64,000 nucleotides of DNA, taken from positions 868,001 to 932,000 of the forward strand of contig NZ_LR797830.1 in NCBI RefSeq assembly GCF_903064525.1, in the 5' to 3' direction. Origin of the DNA: Methylacidimicrobium sp. AP8 (GTDB lineage: Bacteria; Verrucomicrobiota; Verrucomicrobiia; Methylacidiphilales; Methylacidiphilaceae). The position numbers and the translations under genes are program-made. Within the stretch, counting starts at the first letter, position 1. The number at the start of each line of letters is the position of its first letter. Under the pieces are notes generated by a model. That model did not search any database. It had not been told where the DNA came from and saw nothing but the letters and a program-made list of their open reading frames with translations. Positions 4,856 through 32,057 of this stretch are shown here, in pieces.

Positions 4856-6117
4856 ATGGAAACGGATGCGACCCCCGAGCTGACCGGACCACTTCCGCCG
4901 GCCGCCTACCTCCGCCGCTGTGTCCGGGAGCCCTATCGGCTCCTCTTTCCGCTGGGCACGGTCTTCGGGTTCCTCGGAGTGGCGGTCTGGCCGCTGGCGG
5001 CTTTGGGATGGGCGCCCTGCCCGCCGGCGCAAAGCCATCCCCGGCTCATGATCGAAGGATTCGTCGGTTCCTTCCTTATCGGATTCCTTGGAACCTCGGT
5101 GCCCCGCCTCCTCGAGATCCAGCCGCTGAGCGGAAACCTGCTCCTGCTTCTCTCCGTCACGCTCTTCACGGGAAGCATCTTCCAGCTCCTCGGCGGACAG
5201 TGGGCGGGGGACCTGCTCTTCTGCTTCGCTCTCCTTCTACCCATGACCTTTTTTGCTTTGCGCTTTCGCGAACGGAAGGGCAGCGCGCCTCCGAGCTTGC
5301 TCCTGGTGCTCTTGGGCGCGGCAGGAGGGGTGGCCGGAGCCTTCCTGCAGGCGGAGAAGGCGGCCGGAACCCGGATGAGCCCGCTCCTGCAACAGTTCAG
5401 CGCGCTGCTGCTTTTTCAAGGGCTGCCTCTCTTTTCGCTTCTTGGCTTAAGCGCCTTCTTCCTGCCGCGGCTCTACGGCGGGGAGGGCGAAAACATCGAC
5501 CCGGCCGCGTGCCGACGTTCGGGTCGAGGGCTTGGGCCGGCGCTGCTCGCCGCGGGGGCGGGACTGCTGATCCTCGCCAGCTTCTTTCTGGAAGCGGCGG
5601 GGCAGCGCCTCGGGGAGGGCTTCTCCGGGTGGGAACGGCCGCGGGGTATCTCGCGCTCAGCTTACCTTCCGCGCCCGAGCTTCTCGGCCGGGGAACCGTC
5701 GCTGCCGCCGCCCGGCTGGCCCTTGCGCTTTCCCTGCCGGGCTTGCTCCTCGGCGCCTTTTTCGCCCCGGCGGGCTTTCTCCACCTTTTCTTCCTGGGCG
5801 GCGCCGGCTTGATGATCCTGGCCATCGGCGTCCGCGTCGTCTACGGCCTGAGCGGGAGAGGCTTTCTCCTCCGATTCCGCTTCATCCCGTTCGAGTTCGC
5901 CATCCTCGGAGTGATGGCGGCGCTGGTCGCCCGGATCGCCGCCGACTATCTTTCTTCCTGGAAGTCCCCGCTGCTTTCCGTCTCTGCCGTTCTCTGGTTG
6001 GCATCCCTGGCCCTTTGGATGGTGGTCGTGCTCCCCTTCGTCCTCTGCCCGGATAGGGAAGAGACGGCTGCCGGAGATGGAGGAGCCGCGTCCTCGGCCC
6101 GGAGTGAGCAGGAGTAG
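4856..6117 (+). pseudogene. NnrS-like haem/copper membrane protein gene, apparent frameshift
   Basis: The first part, from ATG 4856, encodes membrane segments with features of the NnrS family, including HPRLMIEGFVGSFLIGFLGT near residue 65. The homologous reading then leaves this frame: from about base 5640 the family-like sequence (FLHLFFLGGAGLMILAIGVR, VVYGLSGRGF and further helices) is in the frame one base earlier, ending at TAG 6117. The switch lies in about 5600-5645, a G/C-rich stretch with short G runs, and fits loss of one base. If intact the protein would be about 420 residues with about 12 helices. NnrS proteins protect against nitric oxide stress. The gene lies directly before nirK. 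It may be a true pseudogene or a base error in the assembly. Confidence 0.7.
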
Positions 6118-6178
6118 CGGTGCGGGGCGGGAAGAGGTTTCCCGCAGAAGCATGCTTGGGAAACGGGCAGGCCGCATT

Positions 6179-7222
6179 ATGGTAAGAACCGTGAAGGGAG
6201 AAGGGACGCCCCCAAGGTCTTCCTGGCCGGCCGCCGGGATTCTCCGGCTATTCCTGGGCCTCCTCCTTGCCGGGCTGCCGGTCATCTGCAGGGCTGGGGA
6301 GAGCGCGGCAGCCGATATCAGCCGCGACCCCTCGGACCTTCCCGGCCCTCTGCCGCGCCGGGGCCCGAAGCTCCTCCGGATCGATCTGTTGGCCCTGGAA
6401 ACCGAAGGTAGGCTTACCGATGGGTCTACCTTTCGATATTGGACTTTCGGCGGGAAGGTCCCGGGCCCCTTTTTGCGTGTCCGCGTCGGGGACACCCTGG
6501 AAGTCCACCTCCGTAACGATCCCGGTTGCCGGATGGTCCATTCGATCGATCTTCACGCGGCGTGGGGCGATTCGGGCGGCGCGATGCTCAGCCAGACCTT
6601 GCCGGGCGGGGAGAAGACGTTCACCTTTCGGGCGCTCAATCCGGGGCTCTACCTTTACCACTGCGGGACGCCCGTGGTGGCGCAGCACATCGCCAACGGG
6701 ATGTACGGCCTCATCCTGGTCGAGCCTCCCGGCGGGCTGCCGAAGGTGGATCGGGAGTTCTACATCATGGAAGGGGAAATCTACACTTCGGGAGGCTTCG
6801 GCGCATCCGGCTTCCAGGAACCCGACTTCAGGAAGATCCTGGAGGCGCGGCCGGATTACTTCGTCTTCAACGGCTCGGTCGGCGCTCTGGTCCGGCACCC
6901 TTTGCGAGCCAAGGTCGGCCGGCGGATCCGGATCTTCTTCGGCAATGCCGGACCGAGCACTTCCGCCAACCTTCACGCCCTAGGGGCCATCTTCGAAAAG
7001 GTCTACGAGGACGGAAGCCTGGCAAGCCCTCCCATGGAGAACAGCTGCTCGATCTTCGCTCCATCGGGAGGAGCGGGATTCGTCGAGTTTGTTCCCAAGG
7101 TTCCCGGAAGCTATCCGCTGGTCGACCACTTTTTCTTCAAGCAGGAAAAGGGGCTAGGCGGGAGTCTGGTGGTCGAGGGGCCGGCCGATCCCTCGATTAT
7201 TCATGAAGGGGCCGTCCGATAG
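6179..7222 (+). CDS. nirK: copper-containing nitrite reductase (NO-forming)
   Basis: Two-cupredoxin-domain enzyme that reduces nitrite to nitric oxide in the periplasm; about 347 residues with an N-terminal signal sequence. Domain 1 has HSIDLH, which gives the type 1 His, the catalytic Asp and a type 2 His, followed by YHCGTPVVAQHIANGMYG with the type 2 His, type 1 Cys, His and Met ligands in family order. Domain 2 has NLHALGAIFEKVYEDG with the second catalytic His, and PGSYPLVDHFFFK with the third type 2 His. The spacing is closest to AniA-type enzymes. The start is uncertain: ATG 6179 puts the leader at the N-terminus, while ATG 6152 and 6077 are also in frame. It follows the nnrS-like gene and overlaps the next small gene, so the three probably form one transcript. 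Confidence 0.92.
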   Translation: MVRTVKGEGTPPRSSWPAAGILRLFLGLLLAGLPVICRAGESAAADISRDPSDLPGPLPRRGPKLLRIDLLALETEGRLTDGSTFRYWTFGGKVPGPFLRVRVGDTLEVHLRNDPGCRMVHSIDLHAAWGDSGGAMLSQTLPGGEKTFTFRALNPGLYLYHCGTPVVAQHIANGMYGLILVEPPGGLPKVDREFYIMEGEIYTSGGFGASGFQEPDFRKILEARPDYFVFNGSVGALVRHPLRAKVGRRIRIFFGNAGPSTSANLHALGAIFEKVYEDGSLASPPMENSCSIFAPSGGAGFVEFVPKVPGSYPLVDHFFFKQEKGLGGSLVVEGPADPSIIHEGAVR

Positions 7223-10578: not shown

Positions 10579-11055
10579 GAAAGGAAGGATAAGCGCACCG
10601 TCCCGCTTCCTTCTAGCCAAAACCGTATCCGCATCAGGGAAGCCCTGTAGCCGGATAGGGGAAACAGGGCAGGAGATGTCCGCGGAAGAGTGGAGGCCGG
10701 GGTGGAAACGGCAGGCGACGGCCGAACGGGGAAAAGTCGTAAACAGGCGCTTTCCGAATTCGTCGATACCAGAGGATATTCGCTATCGGCCTAAGGGGGC
10801 GGGCCTAGGCTTCTTTCGCGGGAATGCCTCCACAGGAAGAGATGAAAAGTACCTAATCATTGATGAGGGAATGCCTTATATGAAATACAGGAAAATTACT
10901 TGCCAACGGGGGCTTTTGTACTACGATCTCCGCTAGAAGGTCGTTAGGGGCAAACCCCGATGATCTTCTGCCTCCTAACCCCGGAGGTTAGGGGCCGTGC
11001 CCCGGGTGATGCATCCGGGGCATGGGAAAGAGCAGAAAGGGAGAAAGAAAAAGAT
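10579..11055. promoter_or_regulatory. upstream region of the first pmo operon
   Basis: About 480 bases without a gene. From 10830 to 10930 the sequence turns markedly AT-rich, which is where the pmo1 promoter probably lies. No promoter boxes are assigned. The last 110 bases carry the hairpin leader listed separately. Confidence 0.5.
10945..11022 (+). promoter_or_regulatory. pmo1 leader with competing hairpins
   Basis: GTTAGG at 10945-10950 can pair with CCTAAC at 10975-10980, which can instead pair with GGTTAGG at 10986-10992. GGGGC at 10991-10995 can pair with GCCCC at 10999-11003, which can instead pair within TGCCCCGG at 10998-11005 and CCGGGGCA at 11015-11022. Only some of these stems can form at once. 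The last stem lies just before the ribosome binding site of pmoC1, so the leader could control translation or transcript stability. Confidence 0.45.
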
Positions 11056-11898
11056 ATGGCACAAACACAAACGACGACGGCAACGGCTGTCGCGCGCCCG
11101 CCGGTCTCCGCCTTTTCGTGGAAAAGCGCGGGGATCGCGATCGGCGCGCTGGTGGTCTTTGACGTCCTGATCAACGTCTACGAGAGGCTCTACGCGTTTT
11201 CGAAGGGTCTCGACTACACGTCGCCGGAATACAACACCTACTGGATGGGCATGCTCTTTGCGGAGCTTGTCATGGAAGCGGTCACGGCGGCTGCGCTCTG
11301 GGGCTGGCTCTGGATGACGCGGGATCGGGCGCTCGATCGCCTCTCTCCGGCGGAGGAGCTCAAGCGGTATTGGGCCTTGGGACTCTTCGTCCTGACCTAT
11401 ACCTACGCGGCGTACGCCGGCGCGAGCTACTTCACGGAGCAGGACGGGACGTGGCACCAGACGGTGATTCGGGATACCGACTTCACCCCGAGCCACGTGA
11501 TCGAGTTCTACCAGAGCTATCCCATCTACATCATCTTCGGTGTGGGCTCGCTGGTTTATGCGATGACCCGACTGCCGCAGTTCGCGAAGGCGTTTTCCTT
11601 GCCTTATGCGGTGCTGGTGGGCAGCCCGTTGATGATCTTCCCGAACGTCGGGCTCAACGAGTTCGGCCACACCCGGTGGTTCATGGAGGAGCTTTTCGTG
11701 GCTCCGCTCCACTGGGGCTTCGTGACGTTCGGATGGGGTGCGCTGGCGATCCTCGGGACCTGGCTGCAGATCTGCCCGCGGGTGATGGCGCTCATCAACC
11801 ACATCTACTACGGGAAGCCGATCCAGAGCCCGGCCGAGGTGATGCGGGATCCGCAGAGCTCCTGCAATCCTGCCGCTTGCGCGGCCTGCGCGGTGTAG
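11056..11898 (+). CDS. pmoC1: particulate methane monooxygenase subunit C, copy 1
   Basis: 280-residue integral membrane subunit of pMMO, which oxidises methane to methanol. The CuC site residues are present: Asp130, His134 (DGTWH) and His147 (TPSH), matching D156/H160/H173 of the Methylococcus enzyme. The CuD residues are also present: Asn201, His205 (NEFGH) and His219 (APLH). The start ATG 11056 follows AAAGGGAG by about 13 bases, and the upstream in-frame extension is not protein-like. The C-terminus is unusual, with Cys270, Cys275 and Cys278 in the last 11 residues. First gene of pmoCAB; pmoA follows after 100 bases. It differs from copy 2 only at residues 61 (Thr/Ser) and 79 (Ala/Gly). 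Confidence 0.97.
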   Translation: MAQTQTTTATAVARPPVSAFSWKSAGIAIGALVVFDVLINVYERLYAFSKGLDYTSPEYNTYWMGMLFAELVMEAVTAAALWGWLWMTRDRALDRLSPAEELKRYWALGLFVLTYTYAAYAGASYFTEQDGTWHQTVIRDTDFTPSHVIEFYQSYPIYIIFGVGSLVYAMTRLPQFAKAFSLPYAVLVGSPLMIFPNVGLNEFGHTRWFMEELFVAPLHWGFVTFGWGALAILGTWLQICPRVMALINHIYYGKPIQSPAEVMRDPQSSCNPAACAACAV

Positions 11899-11998
11899 GT
11901 CCGGAAACGGGAGAAACGGAAGAAAGAAAAACACGCAAGCAAGGTGAGGGGCGGGATTGGCAACCCGCCCCCACTCTTGCCGAGGGGGAAAGCAACCA

Positions 11999-12763
11999 AT
12001 GCAATATTCGCAAGTAGACGCGGAGGCGAAGGCGATCGCGCGCAAGTTCGACTGGGTGGTGATCCTGTCGACCTTTCTGGCGCTGATCGCCGGCTTCCAT
12101 GTCCACCAGATGCTGGTGGCCGGAGACTGGTCGTTCTGGATCGACTGGAAGGATCGGAACTGGTGGCCGATCGTGGCTCCGATTCTGGAGATCACCTTCC
12201 CGGCGGCGGTGCAGGCGGTCTTCTGGACGAAGTTCCGGATGCCGATCGGAGCGACGTTCTGCTGCCTGGGCCTGCTCTTTGGACAGTGGATGAACCGGTA
12301 CATCAACTTCAACGGTTGGACCCACTATCCGCTCAACTTCGTCTTTCCGGAGACGTTCATTCCGCAGGCGGTCGTGCTCGACGTGGTGCTGATGCTGACC
12401 GGCAACTGGATTGTGACGGCCCTGGTGGGCGGCGAGCTCTGGGGCTGGCTCTTCTATCCGACCAACTGGGTGATGATCGCACCCTATCACCTGCCGGTTG
12501 AGTATCAGGGCGCGCTGATGAGCATCGCGGATGTGATCAACTACATGTACGTCCGCACCTCGACGCCGGAGTATCTCCGGATCGTGGAGACGGGAACGTT
12601 GCGGAGCTTCGCGGGAGGGGTGACCGGTGTGGCCGCCTTCTTCTCGGGGTTCGTCTCGGTCTGCATGTACGTGCCGTGGTGGCTGATGGGCGCTCATTTC
12701 TTCGGCAGCACGAAGTTCTTCAAGACCTATGAGGCGGCTGCGGTGGAGGTGAAGCGCGCCTAA
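11999..12763 (+). CDS. pmoA1: particulate methane monooxygenase subunit A, copy 1
   Basis: 254-residue membrane subunit of pMMO with about seven helices. The family is clear from AGDWSFWIDWKDRNWWP near residue 41, the NRYINFNGWTHYPLNF segment near 100 and the LMLTGNWIVTALVGGELWGW block. ATG 11999 is chosen because the protein then starts at the family position; the in-frame upstream ATG at 11957 lies in the spacer. It differs from copy 2 at Asn/Tyr in NFNGW, Ile/Met in ETFIPQ, Ala/Ser in YQGAL, Leu/Met in GTLRS and Val/Ala near the end. Confidence 0.97.
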   Translation: MQYSQVDAEAKAIARKFDWVVILSTFLALIAGFHVHQMLVAGDWSFWIDWKDRNWWPIVAPILEITFPAAVQAVFWTKFRMPIGATFCCLGLLFGQWMNRYINFNGWTHYPLNFVFPETFIPQAVVLDVVLMLTGNWIVTALVGGELWGWLFYPTNWVMIAPYHLPVEYQGALMSIADVINYMYVRTSTPEYLRIVETGTLRSFAGGVTGVAAFFSGFVSVCMYVPWWLMGAHFFGSTKFFKTYEAAAVEVKRA

Positions 12764-12787
12764 GCCTAAAGAGGAGGAAGGAAGACG

Positions 12788-14038
12788 ATGAGAAAAGGCG
12801 TAATGCGGGTGATCGGAAGAGCGGGGGCGCTGGTCCTGCTGGGGATGCTCCTGGCGGGACCGGCGACGAGCCGGCTCTGGGCCTTGGGCGAGAAATCGCA
12901 GGAGGCCTTCCTTCGGATGCGGACGGTGATCTTCTACGACACCAAGTTTTCCGGAAGGAAGTTCAAGGTCGGGGACGAGATGACGGTGACGGGGAAGTTC
13001 CAGATTTTGCCGATCTGGCCGAAGGAGATCGCCTTTACGGGGATCTCGTGGCTGAACTTCTTCGTTCCGGGGCCGCAGTTCCTGCGGGTCGGCTCATGGA
13101 TCAACAACCGGTTCATGTCCTGCTCGCAGCTGCTGGAGCTGGGCGGTACCTACGAGTACAAGACGATCACCAGGGCGCGGTACCCAGGCCACTGGCCGGT
13201 CGGGGTGATGCTGAGCATGAAGGATGCGGGGCCCTTGATCGGGCCGTCGATCTACGTCGACGTGGAAGGAAGCCATGCGGGCTTCACCAACCCGATCAAG
13301 ACGCTCGTGGGCACCACGGTCGACCTGGAAACCTACGGGGTGGCCCGGATGCTCATGTGGACCCTGGTGACCACCTTGATCGGGGTGGCTTGGCTCGGGT
13401 TCTGGCTGGGGAGGCCTTTTGTCTCTCGGCTGGGCATCGTGGCGGCCGGAAGGGCCAAGGAGCTGATCAGCGGTGCGGACAAGACCGTGGCGGTGATCTT
13501 TGCCCTTGGGACCATCGGCCTGATCGCGATCGCCAACGCGATGACTGCGGCGCAGTTCCCGCACACGATTCCGATCCAGGAGACGATCATCAAGAACGAG
13601 CCGCTTCCGCCCGAGCCGACCCACGTGGAGGCGAAGGTGCTGGACGCGACCTACGATGTGCCGAGCCGCACGCTCTCCTTCCGGCTCGAGGTGCATAACA
13701 CGGGGGATCGTCCCTTGGTGCTCAAGGAGTTCACCACGGCCAACGTCCGCTTCTTCAACGAGCAGGTTCCGGGGAACGTCTGGAATCCTGACTTTCCGGA
13801 AGTGTACGGGGGCCCGATGAAGATCACTCCTTCGGAGCCGGTGGCGCCCGGGGAGACCAAGGTGCTCGAAGTGGTGCTGGCGAGCGCGGAGTGGGAGAAC
13901 CAGCGGCTGACGATGTACCACGAGACGACGAACCGTTTCGGGGGCCTGCTCTTCTTCAGCGACCCAAGCGGAGCGCGGAGCATCATCGCCGTCGCCGATC
14001 AGCTCGTCATTCCGCGTTTCGGCGCGACGCAGATGTAA
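12788..14038 (+). CDS. pmoB1: particulate methane monooxygenase subunit B, copy 1
   Basis: 416 residues: signal-like helix 7-30, a first cupredoxin-like periplasmic domain, two membrane helices (about 187-210 and 230-260) and a second cupredoxin-like domain. Numbering matches the Methylococcus protein, but all its copper ligands are replaced: Leu33 (for His33, in LGEKSQ), Ile48, Gln72, Pro137 and Gly139. This loss is known for verrucomicrobial PmoB. AGGAGGAAGG stands about six bases before ATG 12788. Copy 2 differs at residues 9 (Ile/Met), 73 (Ile/Leu) and in LETYGVARM versus LEDYGVNRM near 185. Confidence 0.97.
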   Translation: MRKGVMRVIGRAGALVLLGMLLAGPATSRLWALGEKSQEAFLRMRTVIFYDTKFSGRKFKVGDEMTVTGKFQILPIWPKEIAFTGISWLNFFVPGPQFLRVGSWINNRFMSCSQLLELGGTYEYKTITRARYPGHWPVGVMLSMKDAGPLIGPSIYVDVEGSHAGFTNPIKTLVGTTVDLETYGVARMLMWTLVTTLIGVAWLGFWLGRPFVSRLGIVAAGRAKELISGADKTVAVIFALGTIGLIAIANAMTAAQFPHTIPIQETIIKNEPLPPEPTHVEAKVLDATYDVPSRTLSFRLEVHNTGDRPLVLKEFTTANVRFFNEQVPGNVWNPDFPEVYGGPMKITPSEPVAPGETKVLEVVLASAEWENQRLTMYHETTNRFGGLLFFSDPSGARSIIAVADQLVIPRFGATQM

Positions 14039-14068
14039 GCAGCGGTTCCTGCAAAAGAGCCGACTTCC

Positions 14069-14122
14069 GGCGCGCCCTTCTTCCTCCCGATCCGGGAGAA
14101 GAGGGGCGCGCCCTTCTCTTTT
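14069..14122 (+). terminator. rho-independent terminator of pmoCAB copy 1
   Basis: A long stem with GGCGCGCCC at its base and CTCCC-GATC-CGGGAG at its top, closed by GGGCGCGCC, then CTTCTCTTTT. The same stem recurs after pmoB2. Confidence 0.85.
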
Positions 14123-14395
14123 GAGCGGGAGGCGATCCCGACGGCTGCAGGCCGTCCGGTGATTCACTTATGCTCACTCATCAACACCATTGCCACTGTA
14201 ATGGGTAAAACACCGTATTCGGCTATAGTAGTTTCCCTGATTGTGACCATGCGGCTCCCTTTGTTACGGTTGCTGCTCGAGGACCGATTGGCGAAATGCC
14301 GACCGGCCTTTGTCGGCATCCCGGGAGGATGACGGCCCCAACCCAGGTGGTGCATCTGGGGCATGGGAAGTGCAGAAAGGGAGAAAGAAAAAGAT
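14123..14395 (+). promoter_or_regulatory. promoter and hairpin leader of the second pmo operon
   Basis: This spacer is unrelated to the pmo1 upstream region until about 14346, so the two operons have different promoters. It contains an 8-bp perfect stem, ATGCCGAC (14296-14303) with GTCGGCAT (14312-14319), and then GCCCCA (14335-14340) pairing with TGGGGC (14357-14362). The second stem occupies the same place before the pmoC ribosome binding site as in pmo1. Promoter boxes are not assigned. Confidence 0.5.
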
Positions 14396-15238
14396 ATGGC
14401 ACAAACACAAACGACGACGGCAACGGCTGTCGCGCGCCCGCCGGTCTCCGCCTTTTCGTGGAAAAGCGCGGGGATCGCGATCGGCGCGCTGGTGGTCTTT
14501 GACGTCCTGATCAACGTCTACGAGAGGCTCTACGCGTTTTCGAAGGGTCTCGACTACACGTCGCCGGAATACAACAGCTACTGGATGGGCATGCTCTTTG
14601 CGGAGCTTGTCATGGAAGCGGTCACGGCCGGTGCGCTGTGGGGCTGGCTCTGGATGACGCGGGATCGGGCGCTCGATCGCCTCTCTCCGGCGGAGGAGCT
14701 CAAGCGGTATTGGGCCTTGGGACTCTTCGTCCTGACCTATACCTACGCGGCGTACGCCGGCGCGAGCTACTTCACGGAGCAGGACGGGACGTGGCACCAG
14801 ACGGTGATTCGGGATACCGACTTCACCCCGAGCCACGTGATCGAGTTCTACCAGAGCTATCCCATCTACATCATCTTCGGTGTGGGCTCGCTGGTTTATG
14901 CGATGACCCGACTGCCGCAGTTCGCGAAGGCGTTTTCCTTGCCTTATGCGGTGCTGGTGGGCAGCCCGTTGATGATCTTCCCGAATGTCGGGCTCAACGA
15001 GTTCGGCCACACCCGGTGGTTCATGGAGGAGCTTTTCGTGGCTCCGCTCCACTGGGGCTTCGTGACGTTCGGATGGGGTGCGCTGGCGATCCTCGGGACC
15101 TGGCTGCAGATCTGCCCGCGGGTGATGGCGCTCATCAACCACATCTACTACGGGAAGCCGATCCAGAGCCCGGCCGAGGTGATGCGGGATCCGCAGAGCT
15201 CCTGCAATCCTGCCGCTTGCGCGGCCTGCGCGGTGTAG
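14396..15238 (+). CDS. pmoC2: particulate methane monooxygenase subunit C, copy 2
   Basis: 280 residues, identical to copy 1 except Ser61 and Gly79. The CuC set (Asp130, His134, His147) and CuD set (Asn201, His205, His219) are conserved, and the Cys-rich tail (Cys270, Cys275, Cys278) is kept. Ribosome binding site and start context are identical to copy 1. Since the upstream promoter region differs from that of the first operon, the two copies may be expressed under different conditions. Confidence 0.97.
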   Translation: MAQTQTTTATAVARPPVSAFSWKSAGIAIGALVVFDVLINVYERLYAFSKGLDYTSPEYNSYWMGMLFAELVMEAVTAGALWGWLWMTRDRALDRLSPAEELKRYWALGLFVLTYTYAAYAGASYFTEQDGTWHQTVIRDTDFTPSHVIEFYQSYPIYIIFGVGSLVYAMTRLPQFAKAFSLPYAVLVGSPLMIFPNVGLNEFGHTRWFMEELFVAPLHWGFVTFGWGALAILGTWLQICPRVMALINHIYYGKPIQSPAEVMRDPQSSCNPAACAACAV

Positions 15239-15339
15239 GTCCGGAAACGGGAGAAACGGAAGAAAGAAAAAACACGCAAGCAAGGTGAGGGGCGGGATTG
15301 GCAACCCGCCCCCACTCTTGCCGAGGGGGAAAGCAACCA

Positions 15340-16104
15340 ATGCAATATTCGCAAGTAGACGCGGAGGCGAAGGCGATTGCCCGGAAGTTCGACTGGGTGG
15401 TGATCCTGTCGACCTTTCTGGCGCTGATCGCCGGCTTCCATGTCCACCAGATGCTGGTGGCCGGAGACTGGTCGTTCTGGATCGACTGGAAGGATCGGAA
15501 CTGGTGGCCGATCGTGGCTCCGATTCTGGAGATCACCTTCCCGGCGGCGGTGCAGGCGGTCTTCTGGACGAAGTTCCGGATGCCGATCGGAGCGACGTTC
15601 TGCTGCCTGGGCCTGCTCTTTGGACAGTGGATGAACCGGTACATCAACTTCTACGGTTGGACCCACTATCCGCTCAACTTCGTCTTTCCGGAGACGTTCA
15701 TGCCGCAGGCGGTCGTGCTCGACGTGGTGCTGATGCTGACCGGCAACTGGATCGTGACGGCCCTGGTGGGCGGCGAGCTCTGGGGCTGGCTCTTCTATCC
15801 GACCAACTGGGTGATGATCGCACCCTATCACCTGCCGGTCGAGTATCAGGGCTCGCTGATGAGCATCGCGGATGTGATCAACTACATGTACGTCCGCACC
15901 TCGACGCCGGAGTATCTCCGGATCGTGGAGACGGGAACGATGCGGAGCTTCGCGGGAGGGGTGACCGGTGTGGCCGCCTTCTTCTCGGGGTTCGTCTCGG
16001 TCTGCATGTACGTGCCGTGGTGGCTGATGGGCGCTCATTTCTTCGGCAGCACGAAGTTCTTCAAGACCTATGAGGCGGCTGCGGCGGAGGTGAAGCGCGC
16101 CTAA
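15340..16104 (+). CDS. pmoA2: particulate methane monooxygenase subunit A, copy 2
   Basis: 254 residues with the same membrane layout as copy 1. The five replacements relative to copy 1 (Tyr in NFYGW, Met in ETFMPQ, Ser in YQGSL, Met in GTMRS and Ala near the C-terminus) are mostly conservative. The spacer to pmoC2 has one additional A in a poly-A run. The start corresponds to that of copy 1, in AACCAATG. Confidence 0.97.
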   Translation: MQYSQVDAEAKAIARKFDWVVILSTFLALIAGFHVHQMLVAGDWSFWIDWKDRNWWPIVAPILEITFPAAVQAVFWTKFRMPIGATFCCLGLLFGQWMNRYINFYGWTHYPLNFVFPETFMPQAVVLDVVLMLTGNWIVTALVGGELWGWLFYPTNWVMIAPYHLPVEYQGSLMSIADVINYMYVRTSTPEYLRIVETGTMRSFAGGVTGVAAFFSGFVSVCMYVPWWLMGAHFFGSTKFFKTYEAAAAEVKRA

Positions 16105-16128
16105 GCCTAAAGAGGAGGAAGGAAGACG

Positions 16129-17379
16129 ATGAGAAAAGGCGTAATGCGGGTGATGGGAAGAGCGGGAGCGCTGGTCCTGCTGGGGATGCTCCTGGCGGGA
16201 CCGGCGACGAGCCGGCTCTGGGCCTTGGGCGAGAAATCGCAGGAGGCCTTCCTTCGGATGCGGACGGTGATCTTCTACGACACCAAGTTTTCCGGAAGGA
16301 AGTTCAAGGTCGGGGACGAGATGACGGTGACGGGGAAGTTCCAGCTTCTGCCGATCTGGCCGAAGGAGATCGCCTTTACGGGGATCTCGTGGCTGAACTT
16401 TTTCGTTCCGGGGCCGCAGTTCCTGCGGGTCGGCTCATGGATCAACAACCGGTTCATGTCCTGCTCGCAGCTGCTGGAGCTGGGCGGTACCTACGAGTAC
16501 AAGACGATCACCAGGGCGCGGTATCCGGGCCACTGGCCGGTCGGGGTGATGCTGAGCATGAAGGATGCGGGGCCCTTGATCGGGCCGTCGATCTACGTCG
16601 ACGTGGAAGGAAGCCATGCGGGCTTCACCAACCCGATCAAGACGCTCGTGGGCACCACGGTCGACCTGGAAGACTACGGAGTGAACCGGATGCTCATGTG
16701 GACCCTGGTGACCACCTTGATCGGGGTGGCTTGGCTCGGGTTCTGGCTGGGGAGGCCTTTTGTCTCTCGGCTGGGCATCGTGGCGGCCGGAAGGGCCAAG
16801 GAGCTGATCAGCGGTGCGGACAAGACCGTGGCGGTGATCTTTGCCCTTGGGACCATCGGCCTGATCGCGATCGCCAACGCGATGACTGCGGCGCAGTTCC
16901 CGCACACGATTCCGATCCAGGAGACGATCATCAAGAACGAGCCGCTTCCGCCCGAGCCGACCCACGTGGAGGCGAAGGTGCTGGACGCGACCTACGATGT
17001 GCCGAGCCGCACGCTCTCCTTCCGGCTCGAGGTGCATAACACGGGGGATCGTCCCTTGGTGCTCAAGGAGTTCACCACGGCCAACGTCCGCTTCTTCAAC
17101 GAGCAGGTTCCGGGGAACGTCTGGAATCCTGACTTTCCGGAAGTGTACGGGGGCCCGATGAAGATCACTCCTTCGGAGCCGGTGGCGCCCGGGGAGACCA
17201 AGGTGCTCGAAGTGGTGCTGGCGAGCGCGGAGTGGGAGAACCAGCGGCTGACGATGTACCACGAGACGACGAACCGTTTCGGGGGCCTGCTCTTCTTCAG
17301 CGACCCAAGCGGAGCGCGGAGCATCATCGCCGTCGCCGATCAGCTCGTCATTCCGCGTTTCGGCGCGACGCAGATGTAA
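16129..17379 (+). CDS. pmoB2: particulate methane monooxygenase subunit B, copy 2
   Basis: 416 residues. As in copy 1, the positions of the five PmoB copper histidines are Leu33, Ile48, Gln72, Pro137 and Gly139, so the loss is not a defect of one copy. Met9, Leu73 and the LEDYGVNRM segment distinguish it from copy 1. The intergenic AGGAGGAAGG ribosome binding site is retained. Last gene of the second operon. Confidence 0.97.
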   Translation: MRKGVMRVMGRAGALVLLGMLLAGPATSRLWALGEKSQEAFLRMRTVIFYDTKFSGRKFKVGDEMTVTGKFQLLPIWPKEIAFTGISWLNFFVPGPQFLRVGSWINNRFMSCSQLLELGGTYEYKTITRARYPGHWPVGVMLSMKDAGPLIGPSIYVDVEGSHAGFTNPIKTLVGTTVDLEDYGVNRMLMWTLVTTLIGVAWLGFWLGRPFVSRLGIVAAGRAKELISGADKTVAVIFALGTIGLIAIANAMTAAQFPHTIPIQETIIKNEPLPPEPTHVEAKVLDATYDVPSRTLSFRLEVHNTGDRPLVLKEFTTANVRFFNEQVPGNVWNPDFPEVYGGPMKITPSEPVAPGETKVLEVVLASAEWENQRLTMYHETTNRFGGLLFFSDPSGARSIIAVADQLVIPRFGATQM

Positions 17380-17465: not shown

Positions 17466-17646
17466 GGCTGCCAGGCATGCGTGATGCGCCATAAATAAGC
17501 AGGAGCATTCGAGAAAGCGGGAAAACCGAATACGTCGCGATTGCCACACTGCGCGTCGATGGATTAGCTTCGGTAGCGGATCGACCCGGTCCGCGGCAGC
17601 ATCCATGCGCCTGGGACCGGAGCGGAAAAAACAGAGGAGGAGTGCG

Positions 17647-18255
17647 ATGGAACGGAGAAGACCTGGGAAGCAGAGAGGAGAGCGCAAGCTGGCGGCGGCG
17701 CGGAGAGGGAAGTGCGGTGCTGCTTCCCGTACGGCGGAGGGAATTCTTGCGCTCCTGCTTGCTCCTTGCGCGGCGTTCGCAGCGCAGGTGCTTTCGATCG
17801 AGGGAGTCGGCATGGTTACATCCAACTACGCAGTGGAACTTTCCGAAGGCGATGTGTTGGAAGCGGGGCGGTTTATCCGCACGAACAGTTTTGCCACTTG
17901 CACACTTGGTTGGACGGGTAGCTCGGACAAGGTGGTCCTCGAGCCGTCGAGCAACGCCGAATTGGTGGGGGAAAGTCCAATCCGCTTTCGGCTCGAGACG
18001 GGCAAGATTCGCTTTACCGGCAAGGATGTGGAGGTGGCTACGGCTCTGGCGACGGCGACCAGCAAGCGGGCAGGGAGCTATGCGGTCTCGCTTCGGGAAG
18101 GGAAGGAGATCGTCGAGGTGGCCGATGGAGAGGCGGCGGTCGTGACCGCCGCGAAGAAGGAGTCATACGAGCTCCATGGCGGAGAGGAGCTGACGATCGG
18201 CGGCGACGGCTCGGCGGAGAAAGGGCCGATCGCCGCTCCGAACGCGGCGAAGTAG
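17647..18255 (+). CDS. secreted FecR-like domain protein
   Basis: 202 residues. A long, strongly basic N-terminus precedes a hydrophobic segment ending CAAFAAQ (about residue 44), so the protein is exported. The mature part is beta-rich and follows the FecR pattern: LSIEGVGMVTS, a GDVLEAGRFIRTN strand-turn, a VVLEPSSNAEL repeat strand and IRFRLETGKIRF. Here the domain is not attached to a sigma-factor regulator; such stand-alone forms are usually structural or ligand-binding. ATG 17647 has GAGGAGG directly upstream; an earlier in-frame ATG at 17605 is less likely. It lies downstream of the pmo2 terminator and has its own promoter region. Confidence 0.75.
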   Translation: MERRRPGKQRGERKLAAARRGKCGAASRTAEGILALLLAPCAAFAAQVLSIEGVGMVTSNYAVELSEGDVLEAGRFIRTNSFATCTLGWTGSSDKVVLEPSSNAELVGESPIRFRLETGKIRFTGKDVEVATALATATSKRAGSYAVSLREGKEIVEVADGEAAVVTAAKKESYELHGGEELTIGGDGSAEKGPIAAPNAAK

Positions 18256-19320: not shown

Positions 19321-19794
19321 TTAGAACGTTTGCGTCACGTCGCCGCAGAGGAGCATCGCCGACCCGTAATACGGGTTCTTGATCTCCTTGTCGGCTTGGA
19401 TCCAGCTCGCTTGCGCCATCGGGCAGGTGCAGAGGAAGTAGCGGCCCGTTTGGACCTTGTGCTCCTGAAAGAGCGCGATCAGCCGGTCGCTGACGTCCTT
19501 GTACGCCAGCCGCGCGGTGTCGAGATCGTTCGCCCGCGAGAGCCGATCAAGATCTCCGGAGAGCTCCTTCGGGAAAAAGCCGCCTCCCGAACGTTCGACG
19601 AGTCCTTTCATAGCGGCAGCCTCGGTATCGACCCCCTTGAGCGAATCGGCCGCGAGGGCCTTTCCGATAGCGAGGTAGGGAGGCATAACGGAATCGAGCT
19701 CCGGAGGGAGGGGAGCGGCCGCGGCTAGGGAGGCCCAACCCGCCGCGACCCAGAGGATCGCGAGCATTCGATGACTTCCTCTACTTCCCGTCAT
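19321..19794 (-). CDS. secreted DUF3347-domain protein, probably copper-related
   Basis: 157 residues with a signal peptide ending LAAAAPL. The mature part fits DUF3347: PYLAIGKALAADSLKGV near residue 40, a run of helices, then CPMAQASWIQ and NPYYGSAMLLCGDV at the C-terminus, with the conserved CPM and CG. DUF3347 domains occur in periplasmic copper-efflux and heavy-metal proteins. ATG 19794 has AGAGGAG upstream at short spacing; the frame could start at 19842. It lies downstream of the multicopper oxidase on the same strand, about 145 bases after its stop, and may share its transcript. Confidence 0.85.
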   Translation of the reverse strand: MTGSRGSHRMLAILWVAAGWASLAAAAPLPPELDSVMPPYLAIGKALAADSLKGVDTEAAAMKGLVERSGGGFFPKELSGDLDRLSRANDLDTARLAYKDVSDRLIALFQEHKVQTGRYFLCTCPMAQASWIQADKEIKNPYYGSAMLLCGDVTQTF

Positions 19795-19938
19795 ACACTC
19801 CTCTCTGCGCACGTTACCCGTATCTTTGGACCGGATCCGCATCGGACGCGGGCAAGCCTTAGCCGTTAGCCGTCCGCCTCCCCGAGGCCGGCCATGAAAG
19901 AGTAACGGCGCGACCGGCGAGAGGCAAGGTTCGCCGCG

Positions 19939-21704: not shown

Positions 21705-22328
21705 TCACGAGGCGCTCGCCTGGATCCCATGGGATCCAGCGAAGCTCCTGCGGCGGGCCATCCGGCGATAAACCAGGAAGCCTGCGCCGGAAGCCACGAG
21801 CAGGCCCGCCGCGCCAAGGCCTACCCAGACGATTCCCATTCCGATTGTGATCGGGAACCGGAAGATCAGCGGCTTGCTGTCCGGACCGGTCTTTCCGACC
21901 AGGGTGAGCTCGACCATGTATTGCCCTCGGTTCGGCAGATCAAGGTCCAGGGAGGCGACCCCGCTGGTATACACCTGGGCGGGGAAGTACGCCACGACCT
22001 TGCCGTCGGAAGAAAGCACGCGGCATTCGATCGGGATCTTCCGAAGCTGCGGAGTCACCAGGTCGAGCACAAGGCTCATCTTCCCGGTCGTCGGGACATT
22101 CCGGCAGTACGACTTGAAATTTCCCATGCCGCCCATTCCGGCCATGCCGCCCTGGCTGTAGACATAGACGTCCATGTGGATCGCGTAGCCTCCCTGCTGC
22201 ATCATGCCGCATTCGAGCCCGCCGCTTCCGCTTCCTCCGTGCGCCCAGGACGGGCGCGGCTGCGCGCTCCACGTGAGGGCGAGAAAAAACGCCAGGATCC
22301 GCGCCGAGATTAGCCGCATCGTTCGCAT
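21705..22328 (-). CDS. membrane-anchored protein with predicted N-terminal His, paralogue A
   Basis: 207 residues. The signal peptide should be cut after PSWA, leaving His30 as first residue. The ectodomain contains Cys40, a His51-Met-Asp53 pair, a Met/Gly-rich loop (61-69), Cys75 in SYCRNVPTTG, LVLDLVTPQLRKIPI, and strands FPAQVYTSGVASLDLDL. One helix (164-186) and a basic tail follow. It is paralogous to the protein at 22695-23342, sharing the order N-terminal His, Cys, His-x-Asp eleven residues later, SYC-NVP-TG, and the final helix. An N-terminal His with another His and Asp suggests a Cu(II) site like those of CopC or X325/BIM1 proteins; this is inference. Not recognised as a named family. 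It lies upstream of the multicopper oxidase. Confidence 0.75.
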   Translation of the reverse strand: MRTMRLISARILAFFLALTWSAQPRPSWAHGGSGSGGLECGMMQQGGYAIHMDVYVYSQGGMAGMGGMGNFKSYCRNVPTTGKMSLVLDLVTPQLRKIPIECRVLSSDGKVVAYFPAQVYTSGVASLDLDLPNRGQYMVELTLVGKTGPDSKPLIFRFPITIGMGIVWVGLGAAGLLVASGAGFLVYRRMARRRSFAGSHGIQASAS

Positions 22329-22694
22329 CCAGTGCTCCTTTTGCTGAATTTGGTTGAGTGCTCCCCGTTGCCGACCGCCGCCCTACGTGAGCAGCGAACC
22401 GAAAAAGCAGTTGATTCTTATAAAGACAAATACTGGCAATTTCACCGCGACTGCAAGAAGAAGTTCTCCCGGGCTCGCCCTCTCCAAGGGGTAGGGGAGT
22501 CCCCGATAGGCGAATTGCCGCCGTTGCTATCCCGGACGCCGATCTTCACCCCCCGGGAATCGGCCGCAGTTTCCGAAAGGCGGTTCCGGTCGCCGCCGTG
22601 CCGATCGGAGCCAATCTCTCCCCCGGATCTCCGCAAGGTTTTTCTTTTTTCTTTTGCTCCCCTCTGTCTGTCCAAGTACGCTTAGCTAAAGAAC
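22329..22694. promoter_or_regulatory. divergent promoter region between the two paralogues
   Basis: 366 bases between divergent paralogous genes. It contains an AT-rich part (about 22405-22450) and T-rich runs near 22640, but no motif I can name. A shared operator would be expected if both genes answer the same signal. Confidence 0.4.
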
Positions 22695-23342
22695 GTGAGC
22701 AACCGGCGCACTATGGAGCAAAGTCTCCCGGCGGGAGCGGATAGGAGGCTGCGGGAGATTCTTGCCTGGATGATGCGCCTCCTGTTTTGTCTCCTGGTCG
22801 GTTGCGTTTTTCTGCCGAGCGCATCTTTCGCCCATCGCCACCGGCCAAAAGGCCCCATCGACTGCGGAGTCGTCAGCGTGGACGGCTATACCGCCCACCT
22901 CGACATCTGCAAGTACGAACCGTTGAAGACGTACGAAAGCTATTGCGAAAATGTCCCTAAGACCGGGGAGGCGACCTTGGTCCTCGATCTTATGAGTCAC
23001 CCGCTCTGGAAGGTTCCCGTTGCTTTGACGGTCATCCGGGAGGCGAGCCGGGAGATTGTGGCGCAAGCCCCGCCGCATGTGTATAAAGAAGGGATCGCGT
23101 CGTTGCGTGTCTACTTTTCCTCCCCGGGCCGTTATATCCTGGAGGTCAAGCCGCAAGGGATCGTGGACGCTGCGCACCAACCGGTCGTGCTTCGCTTCCC
23201 GATCGCCGTAGGCTTGCCGACGCCGAAGAATTTCGCCTCGCTCGGCGTCGGAGAGATCGTTGCCTTGGGAATTTTGGGCTTTCTCGGCTACCGGTTCTGG
23301 CGCAAGCGGATGATGGAGAGAGCCAGAAGGCCGCGGCTCTAA
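22695..23342 (+). CDS. membrane-anchored protein with predicted N-terminal His, paralogue B
   Basis: 215 residues from GTG 22695; ATG 22713 or ATG 22770 may be the true start, giving a normal signal peptide that ends PSASFA before His47. The mature N-terminus is His-Arg-His-Arg. Cys57, His68-Leu-Asp70 (spaced 11 from the Cys as in paralogue A), SYCENVPKTG with Cys84, LVLDLMSHPLWKVPV, PPHVYKEGIASLRVYF and RFPIAVG all align with paralogue A, but the Met-rich loop is missing. A C-terminal helix (about 183-200) and basic tail anchor it. Paralogue A and this gene diverge from a common region. A periplasmic copper-binding role is inferred from the N-terminal His and the neighbours. Confidence 0.75.
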   Translation: MSNRRTMEQSLPAGADRRLREILAWMMRLLFCLLVGCVFLPSASFAHRHRPKGPIDCGVVSVDGYTAHLDICKYEPLKTYESYCENVPKTGEATLVLDLMSHPLWKVPVALTVIREASREIVAQAPPHVYKEGIASLRVYFSSPGRYILEVKPQGIVDAAHQPVVLRFPIAVGLPTPKNFASLGVGEIVALGILGFLGYRFWRKRMMERARRPRL

Positions 23343-29873: not shown

Positions 29874-30436
29874 GTGAAGTTGAGTGTCTGGGCCAAGCGG
29901 CAGGGCAGTTGCTACAAGACAGCTTGGCGGATGTGGAAGGAAGGGCGTTTGCCCGTCCCGGCCGAGCAGTTGCCGACCGGAACGGTGATCGTGCATGCGG
30001 AGCCCTCACAACCCAATGGGGTCGCCCTTTACGCACGGGTATCGAGCTCCGATCAGAAAGCGGATCTGGACCGGCAATTGGCTCGGCTGACCGAGTTCGC
30101 GCTCAAGCAAACGGTTGCCGATCGTCAAGGCCGTCAAGGAGGTCGGCTCCGGAATGAACGGCCATCGGAAGGGCCTGATCGAGCTGCTCCGTGATCCCAA
30201 TATCGGCGTCATCCTGGTCGAGCATCGCGACCGGCTGATGTGCTTCGGCTTGGAGTACGTGGAAGCGGCTTCTGTACGCGCAGAGCCGATCGGTTCTAGT
30301 GGTCGATCCGGACGAGATGACCGACGATATCGTGCGCGACCTGCATGAGGTCATCGTTTCGATGTGTGCCAGGCTTTACGGGAAGCGATCCGCCCGGAAC
30401 CGCGCCGAGAAGGCGCTCAAAGCGATCCATGAGTAA
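29874..30436 (+). pseudogene. tnpA: IS607-type serine recombinase TnpA, two frameshifts
   Basis: From GTG 29874 the frame encodes the MerR-like helix-turn-helix (KLSVWAKRQGSCYKTAWRMW) and the start of the resolvase domain with the catalytic-Ser segment ALYARVSSSDQKADLDRQL. The family sequence then continues in the next frame at about 30115 (VKEVGSGMNGHRKGLIELL, VILVEHRDRLMCFGLEYVE) and in the third frame from about 30280 (VVDPDEMTDDIVRDLHEVI, then MCARLYGKRSARNRAEKAL) to TAA 30436. Two small indels have therefore inactivated it unless they are sequence errors. It overlaps the start of tnpB. Confidence 0.85.
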
Positions 30437-32057
30437 GCGCCCTGTTTTCACCTACCAGACCCGGTTGAGGTTGACGCATGAGCAGACTTCGTGTCTTGAC
30501 GCCTATGCGGCGCTCTACGGGCGGGCGCAGCGGACTCTTTTGGCCAGGATGCGGGCGGGCGTTTCCATAAACGAACTCAAGCGGTCGTTTCTGCGCCGGT
30601 TCGGCCTCACCGCCCGGCAGTTCAACGCCATTCGGGTCGAGCTCGAGGGCAAGATCGCCTCGATCCGGGAAAGGCGGCCCGAGTTGATCGAGGAAGCCAA
30701 ATGGCGGATCCGGAAAGCGGAAGAGGCGGTCGGCCGACTGGAGAAGAAGCATCCGGGATCGAATGTCGTGCACCAGAAAAAGCGGCGGCTTGCCGTCCTG
30801 CGGGCGAAGCTCGAGGCGCTTCTGGCCGATCAGGAGTCCGGCCGGGTCCGGCTCTGTTTCGGTTCCCGACGCCTCTTCCGGAAGCAGTTTTCCCGGGAAG
30901 AGAACGGCTATGCGGACCATGCCGCATGGAAGAAGGATTGGCAGGCGGAGCGGAGCAGCCAGTTCTTCGTGCTCGGATCGAAGGACGAGGCCTCGGGCAA
31001 CCAGTCCTGCCAAGCCGCAGTCGCTCCGGACGGCGGCCTGCGGCTGCGGTTGCGGCTGCCGTACGGATGGGGAAGCACGAGCAAACACCTGGTGCTCGAG
31101 GGCGTGCGCTTGGCCTACGGCCAGGAGGAAATCCTCCAGGCCCTCTCCGCCGGCCGGGTCGTGACCGGAACAACCAAGACCGGGAAGCTCGTCCGCAAGC
31201 CGGAGGGAGCTGCCGTAAGCTACCGCTTCGTGCGGGACCGGAAGGGGTGGCGGGTATTCGCAAGCGTCGAGGCGCAACCGGTTGCCCTGGTGACACGCCG
31301 CCTTGCCGGAGCGATCGGCGTTGACAGCAACCCGGATCATCTTGCCTTGGCCGAAACGGATCGCTTCGGGAATCTCGTGGAAATCCGCCGGATCGGATTG
31401 CATCTCTATGGGAAGAGCGAGGAGCAAGTGAAAGCCGCGATCGGCGATGCGTGCCGGCAGATCGCCCGGGCCTGCGCCGAATCGGGCAAGCCGCTCGTGA
31501 TCGAGCGATTGGATCTTCGCAAGCGGAGGGCCGAGCTGGAGGCGGTCGATGGCGTCCGGGCTCGCTCGCTCTCTTCCTTCGCCTACGCCAAGACGATCTC
31601 CATGCTCAAGGCGGCTTCCTTTCGTGCCGGAGTCGAACGGATCGAAGTCGACCCGGCCTACACTTCCGTGATCGGCGCGGTCAACCACGCGCGCCGTCAT
31701 GGCATCGGTTCTCACCAGGGCGCGGCCTACGCCATCGCCCGGAGAGGATTGGGCCTATCCGAGCGCCCGTCCGTGCGGGAGGCGGTCGTGCCGACCCGCA
31801 ATGGCGGCCATCTCACCTTCGCCCTACCCGCGAGGAATCGGGCGAAGCATGTATGGTCGTTCTGGGCGGACGTTCGGAAGGGGCTCAAAGCGGCGCATGC
31901 AGCGCATGCCCGGTCGGGAGGCAACCATCTGCCTCCCGCGCCTCTGCTCCCGAAATCGCGGGCATTGGGCGCTACCCGGGCTTTGCCGGCGAAACCCCGG
32001 CACGCGAACCGTCGGCAGCACTGTTCGGCCGACGTCCTGGACGATCTTCCCTGGTAG
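30429..32057 (+). CDS. TnpB-related RuvC-fold protein of the IS607 element
   Basis: 542 residues from ATG 30429, overlapping the tnpA stop. RuvC-like residues are visible: Asp299 (AIGVDSNPDHLAL) and Glu359 (LVIERLDLRKRRAE). The third region reads VDPAYTSVIGAVNHARRHGI followed by GSHQGAAYAIARRGLG, so the four-Cys zinc finger of standard TnpB is absent and the last catalytic Asp position is taken by His429 in SHQGAA. This is the TnpB-related subgroup known from IS607/IS605 elements. Standard TnpB is an RNA-guided nuclease whose guide RNA overlaps the 3' end of its gene. Whether this subgroup cuts DNA cannot be told from sequence. Confidence 0.85.
   Translation: MSKRPVFTYQTRLRLTHEQTSCLDAYAALYGRAQRTLLARMRAGVSINELKRSFLRRFGLTARQFNAIRVELEGKIASIRERRPELIEEAKWRIRKAEEAVGRLEKKHPGSNVVHQKKRRLAVLRAKLEALLADQESGRVRLCFGSRRLFRKQFSREENGYADHAAWKKDWQAERSSQFFVLGSKDEASGNQSCQAAVAPDGGLRLRLRLPYGWGSTSKHLVLEGVRLAYGQEEILQALSAGRVVTGTTKTGKLVRKPEGAAVSYRFVRDRKGWRVFASVEAQPVALVTRRLAGAIGVDSNPDHLALAETDRFGNLVEIRRIGLHLYGKSEEQVKAAIGDACRQIARACAESGKPLVIERLDLRKRRAELEAVDGVRARSLSSFAYAKTISMLKAASFRAGVERIEVDPAYTSVIGAVNHARRHGIGSHQGAAYAIARRGLGLSERPSVREAVVPTRNGGHLTFALPARNRAKHVWSFWADVRKGLKAAHAAHARSGGNHLPPAPLLPKSRALGATRALPAKPRHANRRQHCSADVLDDLPW

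Follow-up and report, generated by a model that had tools for sequence, protein, structure and literature searches.

Two divergently arranged genes of Methylacidimicrobium sp. AP8, lying within the 64,000-nucleotide window of DNA analysed here, encode the proteins P1 and P2, which are members of the already named family PmoD/AmoD and represent variation at the level of the genus. The link to copper made by the original prediction is real, yet the family, for which no name had been recognised, is known: the best match of both proteins, by sequence as well as by structure, is the PmoD entry 6CPD. Good support for the view that they are membrane-anchored periplasmic copper proteins tied to pMMO and the neighbouring multicopper oxidase comes from the homology to PmoD, the distribution of the genes and their order. 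We consider it likely that P1 and P2 are tethered PmoD-family proteins handling periplasmic copper for pMMO and the oxidase through a site other than CuA.

PmoD/AmoD was described as a family of cupredoxin-fold copper proteins (PMC6189053). In phmmer searches against solved structures, 6CPD was the first match of P1 (E 2.8e-6) and the sole match of P2 (E 1.3e-3), and it was recovered by a 26-row profile with an E value of 5.7e-13. The Foldseek comparison proposed as a check, run on the AlphaFold models, also placed 6CPD first, with E 2.6e-9 and TM 0.77 for P1 and E 4.2e-10 and TM 0.76 for P2 (TM values by target length); the next unrelated entries followed at 1.7e-3 (P1) and 2.4e-4 (P2), a lead of about six orders of magnitude for 6CPD. 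The models (mean pLDDT 77 for P1 and 81 for P2) consist of a signal helix, a beta-sandwich ectodomain, cupredoxin-like by the Foldseek match to 6CPD, and a C-terminal membrane helix; the N-terminal hydrophobic helix and the C-terminal helix are those expected of PmoD/AmoD, cleavage being predicted by rule. The alignment of 26 verrucomicrobial PmoDs showed that C40, H51 and C75, the equivalents of residues described for PmoD (PMC6189053, PMC8764830), are invariant, and both cysteines (C40/C75 in P1, C57/C84 in P2) are kept in all rows, the proteobacterial ones included. Neither Pfam nor NCBIfam named a family for P1 or P2, and when 20 homologues were scanned with Pfam, no shared match emerged; the PmoD family is therefore invisible to these libraries.

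The PmoD of Methylocystis sp. Rockwell (PDB 6CPD; Met49242_1452) is the nearest known system and shares with P1 and P2 the signal peptide, the cupredoxin-like ectodomain, two invariant cysteines, one histidine and the C-terminal membrane helix. It differs from them in having the Cx7MxH motif and a homodimeric CuA site, whereas P1 and P2 contain Cx10H with Ala or Thr at the Met position. The AmoE/AmoD protein of ammonia oxidisers (Nitrosomonas plasmid copy) belongs to the same family, shows A/HG at the predicted signal end and is encoded beside amoC, but it carries the Cx7MxH motif and is about 29% identical to P1 over 43% of the latter. The features of the pair and of its surroundings are collected in the table.

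Features of the P1/P2 region (positions refer to the window; a slash marks a predicted cleavage site)
Feature	Positions	Strand	Basis or remark
Two tandem pmoCAB operons, upstream	10960..17379	+	PF04744 at both pmoB genes
pmoCAB ORFs	10960-11898, 11957-12763, 12788-14038, 14363-15238, 15298-16104, 16129-17379	+	
DUF3347-like periplasmic protein	19321..19842	-	PF11827 E 2.6e-4, below cut-off; syntenic with the multicopper oxidase and P1 in both genera
Multicopper oxidase, CueO/CopA-like, downstream of P1	19939..21624	-	PF07731 7.6e-33, PF07732 4.2e-27
P1, PmoD homologue, multicopper-oxidase-linked type	21705..22328	-	207 aa; phmmer and Foldseek to 6CPD
P1 C-terminal membrane helix, aa 167-196	21741..21830	-	AlphaFold helix 167-196
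P1 Cys75, second invariant PmoD cysteine	22104..22106	-	
P1 Met/Gly-rich loop, aa 60-69	22122..22151	-	Length-variable in genus; pLDDT below 50
P1 Cys40-x10-His51, PmoD copper motif, Ala49 replacing the CuA Met	22176..22211	-	
P1 His30, predicted mature N-terminus	22239..22241	-	Kept in 7/7 orthologues of the genus and in 4/4 multicopper-oxidase-linked homologues of Methylacidiphilum
P1 signal peptide, aa 1-29, predicted cleavage SWA/H30	22242..22328	-	Hydrophobic helix 2-21 in model; S-x-A before conserved His
P2, PmoD homologue, Methylacidimicrobium-specific branch	22695..23342	+	215 aa; phmmer and Foldseek to 6CPD
P2 signal peptide region, aa 1-46, predicted cleavage SFA/H47	22695..22832	+	Model helix 15-38; conservation step at His47
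P2 His47, predicted mature N-terminus	22833..22835	+	Kept in 6/6 orthologues reaching His47
P2 Cys57-x10-His68 motif	22863..22898	+	C57 and H68 are invariant columns
P2 Cys84, second invariant PmoD cysteine	22944..22946	+	Invariant column
P2 C-terminal membrane helix, aa 186-211	23250..23327	+	AlphaFold helix 186-211

Both open reading frames were found where they had been predicted, that of P2 beginning with GTG, and their products proved to be paralogues, as had been proposed, with 32% identity over 185 aa (BLASTP, E 1e-30). The dN/dS values within the genus, 0.13-0.20, indicate purifying selection on both. The motifs recognised earlier were recovered (SYCRNVPTTG / SYCENVPKTG, LVLDL in both, VYTSGVASL / VYKEGIASL and a single C-terminal helix in each), as was the Met/Gly-rich loop SQGGMAGMGGMGNF in P1, missing from P2; the spacing between Cys and His, claimed to be eleven residues, is ten in both proteins (C40..H51 and C57..H68). 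The loop of P1 is shorter in the M. cyclopophantes orthologue and missing from the aligned Methylacidiphilum sequences, and is a variable expansion at the genus level. The intergenic stretch 22329-22694 contains genus-conserved blocks, including a T-rich stretch and the block GTGAGCAA at the P2 start, and Rfam gave no match within or near the pair.

The cleavage sites were placed by the -3/-1 rule only, which is fitted by the Ser-x-Ala preceding His30 (SWA/H) and His47 (SFA/H). Among the P2 orthologues, 3 of the 25 columns before His47 are invariant, against 22 of 25 from His47 on; the corresponding values for P1 are 8/25 before His30 and 18/25 from it on. The predicted N-terminal His is present in all P1 and P2 orthologues but not in all PmoDs. 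A His following Ala occurs also in a PmoD of Nitrosomonas and in one of Methylosinus; of the four PmoD types in Methylacidiphilum, two lack the residue, as do some proteobacterial PmoDs. The N-terminal 14 residues have pLDDT below 50 in the models, which are uninformative for that region.

The gene order pmoCAB, the uncharacterised ORF 17605-18255, the DUF3347-like gene, the multicopper oxidase, P1, P2, Usp and recR is kept in Methylacidimicrobium, some contigs being too short to cover the whole stretch. In all six genomes of the genus that have both genes on one contig, P2 is divergent to P1; where a contig extends from the pair to pmoCAB, as in four genomes of the genus, the two lie 4-5 kb from each other. 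The succession of P1, oxidase and DUF3347-like gene is common to Methylacidimicrobium and Methylacidiphilum; in the latter the orthologue of P1 keeps both neighbours, but lacks the Met/Gly-rich loop and has no P2-type gene alongside, and the other PmoD types adjoin pmoC or pmoCAB. P2 is peculiar to Methylacidimicrobium. In the tree, P1 joins the oxidase-linked genes of Methylacidiphilum with moderate support (82/83). Strain Kam1 of Methylacidiphilum has four pmoD homologues; one of them adjoins a multicopper oxidase (PMC6688271), in keeping with the P1 type. A grouping of P2 with the CopC-linked PmoD of Methylomagnum (90/92) was set aside because of long branches.

The oxidase adjacent to P1 scores below the CueO and CopA cut-offs, and neither genus shows any variation in its copper-ligand His, Cys and Met residues (those of HPFHLHG and HCHILEHLHSGMM). 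The DUF3347-like protein contains the invariant TCPMAQ...SAMLLCGD; the NCBIfam function 'plasminogen/vitronectin-binding' (a Leptospira model) was rejected, the score being far below cut-off, and synteny suggests instead that the protein handles copper. Upstream of pmoCAB lies a second multicopper-type ORF (6077-7222), which is 24% identical to the oxidase and may be the copper nitrite reductase described for AP8. The tandem pmoCAB operons are about 3.34 kb apart and 98-99% identical in the repeats examined, which suggests a recent duplication or gene conversion. In both PmoB sequences (12788-14038 and 16129-17379) the signal region is followed by ALGEKSQ, without the His that proteobacterial PmoB has at that place. 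Verrucomicrobial PmoB was reported to be without the conserved copper sites (PMC6688271). Elsewhere in the window, ORF 29874-32057, judged by eye, resembles a serine recombinase and adjoins a TnpB-like ORF, the two possibly forming an IS607-type element.

The distribution of the family bore out the expected association with pMMO, homologues being found in 13/13 genomes with PmoB and in 0/27 without it among the relatives searched by profile; because the PmoB carriers all belong to one family, a single clade, these counts are not independent events. Two pmoB-less relatives gave matches to the C-terminal anchor only (E 0.03-0.08). Across 289 genomes of the phylum, full PmoD matches were confined to the methanotroph family, and three other members showed C-terminal-half matches inside frames of 667-790 aa. 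All five of these weak cases, confined to the half with the C-terminal anchor and lying in frames of 349-790 aa, were rejected. A search of 72,556 plasmids returned seven matching records, only from the methane or ammonia oxidisers Methylocystis, Methylosinus, Methylomagnum and Nitrosomonas; five of the seven loci were inspected, three being near amoC, one beside copC and one near a PQQ methanol dehydrogenase.

The AP8 genome has exactly two PmoDs, P1 and P2; in proteobacterial genomes the number can reach eleven (PMC6189053). Only one pmoD is given in the published account of M. thermophilum AP8 (PMC7907005), so that, if the window belongs to that genome, two are present here against the one listed. 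No match to CopC (Pfam) or PCuAC was found in the AP8 genome. CopC was likewise not found in the other Methylacidimicrobium genomes nor in the related genome G007, and PCuAC was absent from 14/14 genomes searched; Sco1 was found. In another related genome, G008, a CopC match is present beside a duplicated PmoD: two identical genes (contig L050, 8272-8880 and 11528-12136) occur at an interval of 3.26 kb, both with a CopC match after them, and either arose by tandem duplication or reflect an artefact of assembly.

The structure of the copper site was considered from the residues that are retained and replaced. Formation of CuA requires Cys41, Met49 and His51 (Cx7MxH), only members with this motif form it, and the Met49Ala change abolishes it (PMC6189053); a Met-to-Ala change, with the same loss, was noted in Methylacidiphilum PmoD (PMC8764830). 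P1 and P2 depart from the Cx7MxHxnC motif of the CuA subclass, their Cx10H having one loop residue more, and the Met position is occupied by Ala49 in P1 and Thr66 in P2. Because of this extra residue and these replacements CuA is unlikely, and judging from the sequences the homodimeric CuA site is probably not formed. An electron-transfer protein with a homodimeric, mixed-valent CuA, as in Methylocystis PmoD, would agree with the family, the fold of 6CPD and the retained Cys and His ligands, but the dependence of CuA on Met, set against Ala or Thr and the longer loop, makes this reading very improbable. A mononuclear Cu(II) carrier, in which the amine and imidazole of the N-terminal His combine with His51 and Asp53 in a CopC-like or histidine-brace site, would account for the predicted His, which every P1 and P2 orthologue shares with several other PmoDs, for the invariance of H51 and near invariance of D53 in verrucomicrobial PmoDs, and for weak fold matches to CopC and AA10 LPMO. 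This reading appears doubtful in view of the two Methylacidiphilum types and the proteobacterial PmoDs that lack the His, the low pLDDT of the first 14 residues, and the fact that the invariant residues are two Cys and one His, which indicates thiolate chemistry. CopC and X325/BIM1-like proteins are beta-sandwich copper proteins with an N-terminal His. Kinship with these proteins, to which the original prediction had likened the pair, is unsupported. Foldseek matched CopC (5ICU) weakly (E about 2e-3, TM 0.48-0.52), and membership of CopC was rejected as P1 and P2 have no Pfam CopC match. Among the 50 Foldseek rows listed in this general search there was no X325 or BIM1 structure.

It is tempting to speculate that verrucomicrobial PmoDs have swapped CuA for another site, composed of the N-terminal His and His-x-Asp and, in P1, the Met-rich loop, and that they carry most of the periplasmic copper supply to pMMO; the lineage context is a PmoB without the usual copper ligands and a genus without CopC and PCuAC, and we hold this proposal to be unlikely as a whole. 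A role apart from copper, as an accessory subunit or a substrate (ketone) carrier of a pMMO-type enzyme, was proposed for the PmoD of strain IT6, whose expression raised acetol production in Methylomonas (PMC8764830), and the SolV pmoD of the pMMO3 cluster was 233-fold up on C3 substrates (PMC12235487). However, that PmoD sits on a different, distant branch (PmoD3), and P1 and P2 adjoin the oxidase and the DUF3347-like protein; copper is therefore favoured, and an accessory role for this pair is the most improbable of the readings.

With regard to the preferred reading, copper binding is documented for PmoDs, and Methylosinus trichosporium with pmoD knocked out is defective in copper-dependent growth on methane; the roles proposed include electron supply, copper loading and structural stabilisation (PMC6189053). 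Homology, models and alignment indicate that P1 and P2 are exported proteins with a predicted inner-membrane tether of one C-terminal helix and a periplasmic cupredoxin-like beta-sandwich. Each would bind one or a few copper ions at a non-CuA site built from Cys40/57 and His51/68, which the N-terminal His and, in P1, the nearby methionines may join. P1 would partner the adjacent oxidase and the DUF3347-like protein, taking and passing on periplasmic copper, and P2 may act alongside it as a second, genus-specific carrier. Together they would supply or buffer copper for pMMO, presumably replacing in the AP8 genome the CopC and PCuAC of proteobacterial pmo clusters. The link of P1 to the oxidase could also serve copper detoxification and not the supply of pMMO.

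Methylacidimicrobium thus represents a reduced case, in which two PmoDs are found beside pmoCAB and a multicopper oxidase without a recognised CopC or PCuAC, and this small gene set therefore offers an uncomplicated system for studying the job of PmoD and whether CuA formation is needed for it.
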